A stretch of DNA of 48,063 nucleotides, taken from NCBI GenBank assembly GCA_003223555.1, contig QHVM01000045.1:1-48063 (forward strand), given 5' to 3'. The position numbers and the translations under genes were made by a program. The first letter of the stretch is position 1, and the number at the start of each line of letters is the position of its first letter. Shown one piece after another: positions 41,485-44,873 of the stretch. The notes below the pieces were generated by a model, which was not told where the DNA came from, ran no database searches, and worked only from the letters and a program-made list of their open reading frames with translations. Source of the stretch: Acidobacteriota bacterium. GTDB lineage: Bacteria > Acidobacteriota > Vicinamibacteria > Fen-336.

Positions 41485-43653
<2,169 letters not shown>

Positions 43654-43659
43654 GAATCA

Positions 43660-43687
43660 CCCCGGAGGGCGCCCTCGCCCTCCGGGG
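43660..43687. terminator. Perfect 11-bp hairpin after the OPT gene
   Basis: CCCCGGAGGGC (43660-43670) pairs with GCCCTCCGGGG (43677-43687) across a 6-nt loop, 7 nt after the OPT stop. There is no U-tract on either strand, but such hairpins commonly end transcripts in GC-rich genomes. It would also lie at the 3' end of the minus-strand RNA candidate 43690-43901. Confidence 0.6.
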
Positions 43688-43689
43688 CC

Positions 43690-43901
43690 GGTAAGCTGTT
43701 GGGATTCGCCAGGTCTCGACGGCGTTCGGAAACGCCCGCCCAGCGGCCTCCCTCCGGGCCCCGGGGAACTACCCGGGACTGTCAGGAGGCTATCCAGGTG
43801 GAACGGCGCCTCGTTGACTACGCTGAGGTCGCAACCTAAGCGTCAGCCACCTCGCGGGGTTTATGGCAACTGTCCACTGGACCACCTCCTTTCTCGCGTA
43901 G
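43690..43901 (-). ncRNA. Candidate structured RNA of unknown family
   Basis: The minus strand begins about 7 nt after a TTGACA/CATAAA promoter and can fold extensively. A long closing helix pairs 43890-43885 with 43789-43784 (AGGAGG/CCTCCT), 43881-43877 with 43797-43793 (TCCAG/CTGGA) and 43876-43873 with 43802-43799 (TGGA/TCCA). Inside it GTTG/CAAC (43870-43867 with 43816-43813) closes a multiloop. That loop holds a compact hairpin, 43843-43820 (ACGCT-AGGT-loop-ACCT-AGCGT), and a GCCA/TGGC stem (43867-43864 with 43849-43846). Further stems are at 43777-43760 and 43736-43721. The 5' part contains AAAGGAGG, perfectly complementary to the 16S rRNA tail but locked in the helix, followed by a 13-codon GTG frame. 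It does not match tmRNA, SRP RNA or RNase P RNA; a divergent 6S-like RNA or a leader is possible. Confidence 0.45.
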
Positions 43902-43907
43902 CGCGAG

Positions 43908-43935
43908 TTTATGAAGAGTGGGCAGGGGGTGTCAA
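43908..43935 (-). promoter_or_regulatory. Promoter for the minus-strand RNA candidate
   Basis: On the minus strand TTGACA (43935-43930), a 16-nt spacer and CATAAA (43913-43908). Transcription would start near 43901 and run toward the OPT gene end. No protein gene lies downstream in this direction. Confidence 0.58.
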
Positions 43936-44017
43936 GAGGGAAAGCGCCATAAGTGGCGTTGACCCTGGACGAAAACCCAATGCATTGCGTACACGCCCGC
44001 GATGAGACGGGCGCCAC
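43936..44017. other. Spacer between divergent promoters
   Basis: These 82 bp separate the RNA-candidate promoter from the promoter of the metallo-beta-lactamase-fold gene. A small stem, CGCCA-taag-TGGCG, lies at about 43946-43959. No ORF is evident. Confidence 0.35.
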
Positions 44018-44047
44018 TTGACACGTCCGCAGAGCGCGTGCTACCGT
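44018..44047 (+). promoter_or_regulatory. Sigma-70-type promoter for the metallo-beta-lactamase-fold gene
   Basis: TTGACA (44018-44023), an 18-nt spacer and TACCGT (44042-44047) preceded by TGC. It ends 65 nt before ATG 44112. Confidence 0.62.
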
Positions 44048-44111
44048 CCCGAGCGTCCCCGCCCCTTCCCACAAGTACAGGCACTTGAGTTACTTGGGGC
44101 GAGTGCAGCAC

Positions 44112-44873
44112 ATGAAGCTGAAGGTCCTCGGCTGCTACGGCGGCAACATCCCGGGCCACGGGATGACCTCGTTGCTGATCAACGATACCCTGGCCCTGGA
44201 CGCCGGCTGGGTCTCCGAGGCGCTGTCCCTGAAGGAGCAGGTCAAGGTCAAGGACATCCTGATCTCGCATTCCCATCTCGACCACACCTGCACGCTGCCC
44301 TTCCTCATCGACAACAACTTCTCCGCCCCCGGCTTCTCGCTGAAGATCTACGCCATCCCCGAGGTCGTGGCCTCCATGCGCGCCCACCTCTTCAACAACC
44401 ACACCTGGCCCGACTTCACCTCCCTCCCCAACGACCTCACGCCGGTGCTGAAGCTCATCGAGATCGCCCCCGAGCACCCGTTCACGATCAACGGCCTCAC
44501 GGTGCGGGCGGTGAAGGTCTCCCACATCGTCCCCACCGCCGGTTACATCGTGGAGGACAAGAAGGCCGCCATCGCGTTCTCGAGCGACACCGGGCCCACC
44601 CAGCGCTTCTGGGAGGTGGTGAACGGCATCAAGAACCTGAAGGTGGTGATCACCGAGACGTCCTTCCCCAACGAGCTGCAGGACCTCGCCGACGTCTCCG
44701 GCCACCTCACCCCGGCCACCCTCGACACGGAGCTCGACAAGCTGAAGAAGGACGTGCCCATCTACCTGTACGGGGGCAAGCCGAAGCACCTGAAGACGAT
44801 CAAGCAGCAGCTCCGCGCGCTCAAACGGCGCAAGCTGCAGATGCTCGTGCAAGGAAAGACTTACAGGTTCTAG
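44112..44873 (+). CDS. Metallo-beta-lactamase-fold phosphodiesterase, class II cyclic-nucleotide PDE-like
   Basis: A 253-aa cytoplasmic hydrolase. The metal-binding motif HSHLDH lies at about 53-58 in KDILISHSHLDHTCTLPFL. Other features are VKVSHIVPTAGYIVEDKK, AIAFSSDTGPTQRFWEVVN and ETSFPNELQDLADVSGHLTP, as in class II 3',5'-cyclic-nucleotide phosphodiesterases. These cleave cAMP or cGMP. ATG 44112 fits the family N-terminus MKLKVLGCYGGNIPGHG; TTG 44085 is an alternative. The gene is monocistronic with its own promoter. Substrate specificity is not proven, because related proteins act on other phosphodiesters. Confidence 0.85.
   Translation: MKLKVLGCYGGNIPGHGMTSLLINDTLALDAGWVSEALSLKEQVKVKDILISHSHLDHTCTLPFLIDNNFSAPGFSLKIYAIPEVVASMRAHLFNNHTWPDFTSLPNDLTPVLKLIEIAPEHPFTINGLTVRAVKVSHIVPTAGYIVEDKKAAIAFSSDTGPTQRFWEVVNGIKNLKVVITETSFPNELQDLADVSGHLTPATLDTELDKLKKDVPIYLYGGKPKHLKTIKQQLRALKRRKLQMLVQGKTYRF

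Follow-up and report, generated by a model that had tools for sequence, protein, structure and literature searches.

The window, i.e. the whole 48,063-nucleotide stretch of Acidobacteriota DNA analysed here, encodes on its minus strand a small RNA which on sequence grounds appears to be a minimal mRNA, and a divergent branch of a family whose named actinobacterial part is Ms_IGR-5. The predicted micro-ORF within this RNA is a new point, having been missed by the original prediction made from this DNA, as were a second, competing fold and the relation to Ms_IGR-5. The best explanation, which we put at about even odds, is a stand-alone, translation-gated regulatory RNA, that is a minimal mRNA working as an RNA; the serious rivals to gating are a ribosome sink and a micropeptide gene.

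The transcription unit and its micro-ORF

The RNA lies between a convergent OPT transporter gene (PF03169, stop 43653) and a divergent phosphodiesterase/MBL gene (PF02112). A minus-strand promoter had been proposed here as TTGACA/CATAAA, and was borne out as TTGACA (43935-43930) and TAAACT (43911-43906) separated by an 18 nt spacer (43906..43935, minus strand), an arrangement that is retained in relatives and is the sole sigma-70-like site in 43500-44200, where shuffles are expected to give 0.0 (sd 0.1). As judged from this promoter, transcription probably starts at ~43899, giving an RNA of ~240 nt (43660..43899, minus strand) that runs to the end of a GC-rich hairpin of 12 perfect pairs (43660..43687, minus strand), perfect as it had originally been described. 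The hairpin is taken to be a terminator because a T run trails it in several relatives, the run being absent from the window copy. Since the OPT gene is convergent, with its stop at 43653, no gene lies downstream of the RNA on the minus strand, in agreement with the earlier claim. The minus strand folds better than its dinucleotide shuffles (z −3.2 and −3.4), and ARAGORN found zero tmRNA or tRNA genes in the window.

The general sequence of the 3′ end of bacterial 16S rRNA is CUGGAUCACCUCCUUUC, and the RNA carries an extended Shine-Dalgarno sequence, GAAAGGAGGTGGTCCAG (43877..43893, minus strand), that pairs with it with one G-U. Complementarity to the 16S tail had been claimed before and was checked against the general bacterial sequence; the genome's own 16S gene was sought in the assembly and not found. 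Directly behind the Shine-Dalgarno sequence follows a micro-ORF of 13 codons (43836..43877, minus strand) with a GTG start, a TAG stop and the predicted peptide MDSCHKPREVADA. It reads GAG GTG GCT and stops 15 nt after GAG begins, its E-V-A codons forming the element GAGGTGGCTG (43844..43853, minus strand).

Relatives were collected using a two-block pattern (GGAGGTGRTCC plus GAGGTGGCTG), which yielded at least 120 stretches in named genomes. The pattern fixes the Shine-Dalgarno sequence and GAGGTGGCTG, so their constancy in pattern-found loci is not evidence, whilst it places no constraint on the ORF frame, P1, P4, the 3′ core or the loci found by model. Of 125 distinct loci among the matches listed, all 125 have a stop at +15 from GAG and 115 combine an open frame with a normally spaced start, against 1 and 0 of 125 in the other two frames; several of the start exceptions open with CTG (Acidimicrobiia-type). 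Start codons (TTG 64, ATG 32, GTG 23) and stop codons (TAG 106, TGA 11, TAA 10), again among the matches listed, swap freely, which only coding explains. The frame was recovered by an automatic rule in 44 of a second set of 46 loci, most of them model-found, and the remaining two are also open through to a TAG in the same place. A start-to-stop micro-ORF in essentially every relative examined argues that the RNA is not purely non-coding. Many copies from family f20 of the phylum (L176, L177, L179, L181, L182, L184, L186 and L187) have an extra A (GGAGGATGGTCC or GGAGGATGATCC) that weakens the Shine-Dalgarno sequence, and the ORF and P3 are retained.

The peptides, of 11-22 residues, have in common only EV and a small residue, and these are imposed by the pairing of helix P3 described below. 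The strict frame with its start and stop codons, together with mycobacterial ribosome reads (PMC4974804), favours a micropeptide gene, in which the product, ending EV-x-x-x, would be functional and the RNA folds would only control translation. However, both the length and the residues of the peptide are free to vary outside the positions set by RNA pairing, changes of the Ala codon to Thr, Pro or Ser come with changes in its pairing partner, and beyond the stop lie ~140 nt of structured, conserved RNA; we hold this explanation to be quite improbable. A ribosome sink is unlikely too: here a near-perfect Shine-Dalgarno sequence and a very short ORF would trap 30S subunits or hold terminated ribosomes, and GAGGUG, which itself resembles a Shine-Dalgarno sequence and lies 6 nt ahead of the final sense codon, could anchor the ribosome at the stop. 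The extent of the complementarity to the 16S tail, the variable peptide and the GAG-to-stop distance, fixed in all 125 loci among the matches listed, suit a sink, but it would need a very abundant RNA and on its own leaves the long-range helix before the terminator and the conserved 3′ core unexplained.

Predicted long-range helices and a competing fold

Helix P1 (43853..43898, minus strand) joins CGCG (43898-43895) to CGCG (43856-43853), 4 bp that close the Shine-Dalgarno loop. In P1/P2, 61 compensated cells (both sides changed) were counted vs 16.8 in shuffles, and the covariation score of 0.371 fell to 0.106 or less after sliding the partner. Helix P3 links the last codons of the micro-ORF, GGUGGCUG (43851-43844, minus strand), to the CAG..ACC just 5′ of the terminator, its 3′ strand being CAGCTTACC (43690..43698, minus strand), and in P4 the stop codon sits in or beside a bulge. 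In a partner-swap test the strands paired better with their own partners (z −8.3 for P1, −9.5 for P3, −6.5 for P4a and −14.1 for P4b), with controls of equal relatedness at −0.3 and −1.5. The codon for the small residue after EV varies (GCU/ACU/CCU/GCG) together with the 3′ strand of P3 (CAGUCCACC, CAGUUCACC, CAGGCCACC and CGCCACC); in some loci this strand is placed wrongly by the anchored P3 listing, which was inspected by eye. Taking the best P3 window from the entire downstream region carried no information, as GGUGGC finds many partners in GC-rich DNA. RNAalifold, given seven family members, found unprompted P1, P3, the stop-codon stem and an inner helix in which GGGAGGCCGCTGGG (43739..43752, minus strand) pairs with CCTGGCGAATCCC (43701..43713, minus strand), the 3′ core whose AAUCC motif is common to actinobacterial copies. 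P1 and P3 are predicted helices supported by compensatory changes. The original prediction had proposed conservation and compensatory change as its check, and both were found, the RNA being kept in relatives with compensatory changes in its stems.

A long helix burying the Shine-Dalgarno sequence had also been claimed, and indeed the single-sequence minimum-energy fold pairs GGAGGUG with CCACCUGGAUAGCCUCC, which resembles the 16S tail. This alternative partner belongs to an internal anti-Shine-Dalgarno, CCACCTGGATAGCCTCC (43785..43801, minus strand), which mimics the 16S tail CUGGAUcaCCUCC. By energy rules the P3 fold is ~8 kcal/mol weaker than the single-sequence minimum. Because this minimum buries the Shine-Dalgarno sequence while RNAalifold finds P1 and P3, two folds are predicted to compete, at least in the window's family. 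Anti-Shine-Dalgarno complementarity beats shuffles in 8 of 8 family members, is weakly significant in Acidimicrobiia-type copies and is not significant against shuffles outside these two groups, Actinomycetia included, and the mechanism of switching may therefore differ between lineages; burial as a general property was rejected, being clear only in the window's family and weaker in Acidimicrobiia-type copies. In one family member (L005, G005:C47) the inner anti-Shine-Dalgarno block occurs twice, as CTACTAGAGAACATCGG and CAACTGGATGCCTCC, with ~46 nt inserted. The original interpretation is upheld in part, namely as to a free, structured and conserved RNA that has its own promoter and terminator and a Shine-Dalgarno sequence that pairing can hide.

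Distribution and family assignment

By DNA search the RNA is present in 7 of 13 other genomes of the family, with promoter, core and hairpin kept, and by covariance model in 8 of 14 family genomes, own included, as a single copy in each. Five members of the family (G004, G006, G011, G012 and G013; 85-100% complete) have no copy detectable by the covariance model, which may reflect loss, an assembly gap or strong divergence; one copy-less family genome shares its genus with a copy-bearing one. Across the phylum, a broader model gave a match at E ≤ 1e-3 in 71 of 297 genomes (E-values of the models built in this analysis are rough), and of the weakest phylum matches, those read comprised several real copies and one false match, L201, which sits within a coding gene. 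Among the pattern matches listed, most are from Actinomycetota, the others carrying Zixibacteria, Nitrospinae, Sumerlaeota, Spirochaetia, Deltaproteobacteria and Acidobacteriota record labels. One Acidobacteriota-labelled contig (L066) bears an Acidimicrobiia-type copy and is possibly a misassigned metagenome bin. A Microbacterium match (L041) was discarded as a chance match in a repeat. Four pattern matches in viral contigs were also rejected, all being coding-like and without the other RNA parts.

Among the matches listed, the next downstream ORF shares the strand of the RNA in 63 loci and is opposite to it in 57, and a shared neighbour gene sought across these same loci was not found; with no constant neighbour, the RNA would act on its own. 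A cis leader or attenuator acting on a neighbour gene has its classical parts here, namely a short ORF, alternative folds and a terminator, yet there is no shared downstream gene, the strand of the next gene is random among the matches listed and the window neighbour is convergent, which makes this explanation very improbable.

The original prediction had matched the RNA to no known family and had proposed an Rfam covariance search. At gathering cut-offs this search of the window gave zero matches for the RNA, which is consequently not filed as an Ms_IGR-5 member, and the link to known families emerged below threshold: the two lowest-E matches were CC2171 (RF01867; 24.7 bits, cut-off 75) and Ms_IGR-5 (RF02471; 22.2 bits, cut-off 45), both of which open with an extended Shine-Dalgarno sequence. 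Relatives exceed the Ms_IGR-5 cut-off of 45, as in L163 from the window's own phylum (47.3 bits), the zixibacterial L059 (55.9 bits) and 14 of 18 tested loci from the pattern set. A model built from actinobacterial copies only (5′ 81 nt) singles out the window locus in its genome, at 38.5 bits and a rough E of 4.3e-8, the runner-up being at 0.23; another site in this genome that resembles Ms_IGR-5 (C45) is a chance match to the start of a coding gene. The window copy also has the Ms_IGR-5 micro-ORF frame with its fixed GAG-to-stop distance, and the 3′ core AAUCC-n-CAG-n-ACC ahead of the terminator, paired with GAGGUGGCUG. The assignment as a divergent branch follows from the relatives above the cut-off and from the actinobacterial-only model, and supplies the family match that the original prediction had not been able to make.

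A divergent 6S-type RNA, left untranslated, had been a further suggestion, and a stand-alone, structured RNA of about the right length would agree with it. However, RF00013 is absent at this locus, the ORF is conserved, and the genome's canonical 6S RNA lies elsewhere (L216, contig C138:53916-54096, plus strand; 100.1 bits, the sole RF00013 match), by which 6S identity is refuted for practical purposes and retains next to no probability.

Actinobacterial copies of Ms_IGR-5 are transcribed as a discrete small RNA (PMC8079986, PMC8780764, PMC10454040), with transcription of homologues in Streptomyces (PMC8079986, PMC8780764). Ribosome footprints lie on homologues in M. abscessus and M. smegmatis, and the authors point out that structured RNAs in general can also show Ribo-seq reads (PMC4974804). 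In the open-access literature we found neither the Ms_IGR-5 ORF nor an extension to multiple phyla.

Translation as a possible signal, and known systems

The endpoint of translation is fixed inside a conserved helix and the peptide is not conserved, which is most simply read as a fold gated by translation, although the fixed ORF could alternatively just make a peptide or load ribosomes. In the gated RNA, initiating ribosomes would reach the stop and cover GAGGUGGCUG and the stop-codon stem; with a ribosome at the stop, P1 and P3 would open and the 3′ core (AAUCCcaaCAG..ACC) would be freed. Were initiation to fail, P1 and P3 would be restored, with the internal anti-Shine-Dalgarno additionally shutting the ribosome site in the window's family. 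The fold would thereby report ribosome availability or initiation state, and its change would alter RNA stability or binding by the 3′ core. More tentatively, and with rather less confidence than for gating itself, the RNA may belong to an ancient, multi-phylum class in which translation of the micro-ORF is the input, the peptide sequence is almost unconstrained, and the fold switches according to how available ribosomes are (or to the state of their 16S tail), in some lineages by way of a copy of that tail within the RNA, with Ms_IGR-5 and perhaps CC2171 as branches.

A small RNA catalogued as specific to actinobacteria is thus far wider, with a universally conserved frame and a Shine-Dalgarno sequence among the most complete possible, and an orphan becomes a testable model of translation as a signal for a regulatory RNA, with Mycobacterium smegmatis and Streptomyces lividans as readily cultured laboratory hosts.

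Ms_IGR-5, classed by Rfam as an actinobacterial sRNA, has like the window RNA an extended Shine-Dalgarno sequence, a micro-ORF ending EVA-x-x-stop, P1, P3, an AAUCC..CAGUCACC core immediately ahead of the terminator and a stand-alone gene, whereas the inner region of the window RNA is longer, with the internal anti-Shine-Dalgarno. CC2171 of the Alphaproteobacteria likewise has an extended Shine-Dalgarno sequence, GAAAGGAGGUGAUCC, a GTG or ATG start and a short ORF (24-26 codons, MSHC.., in plasmid and chromid copies), ORF codons of which (CAUUGUC) pair long-range with GACAAUG before the terminator, but it lacks both the GAGGUGGCUG element and the AAUCC..CAG..ACC core. That the plan is the same and the sequences differ points to a function for the plan as such; as far as their sequences tell, the two RNAs would work alike, and they may share descent. 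In CC2171-like copies on alphaproteobacterial plasmids and chromids (L138-L141, L143) the conserved ORF, starting M/V-S-H-C, lies behind the extended Shine-Dalgarno sequence, which an internal CCUCC may mask, and CC2171 is annotated as a non-coding sRNA despite this ORF. 6S RNA shares with the window RNA only that it is stand-alone and structured, RF00013 not matching the locus. In tmRNA and leader-peptide attenuators, too, it matters that a very short ORF is translated; unlike tmRNA, the window RNA has no tRNA-like domain (ARAGORN), and unlike attenuators it has no regulated downstream gene.
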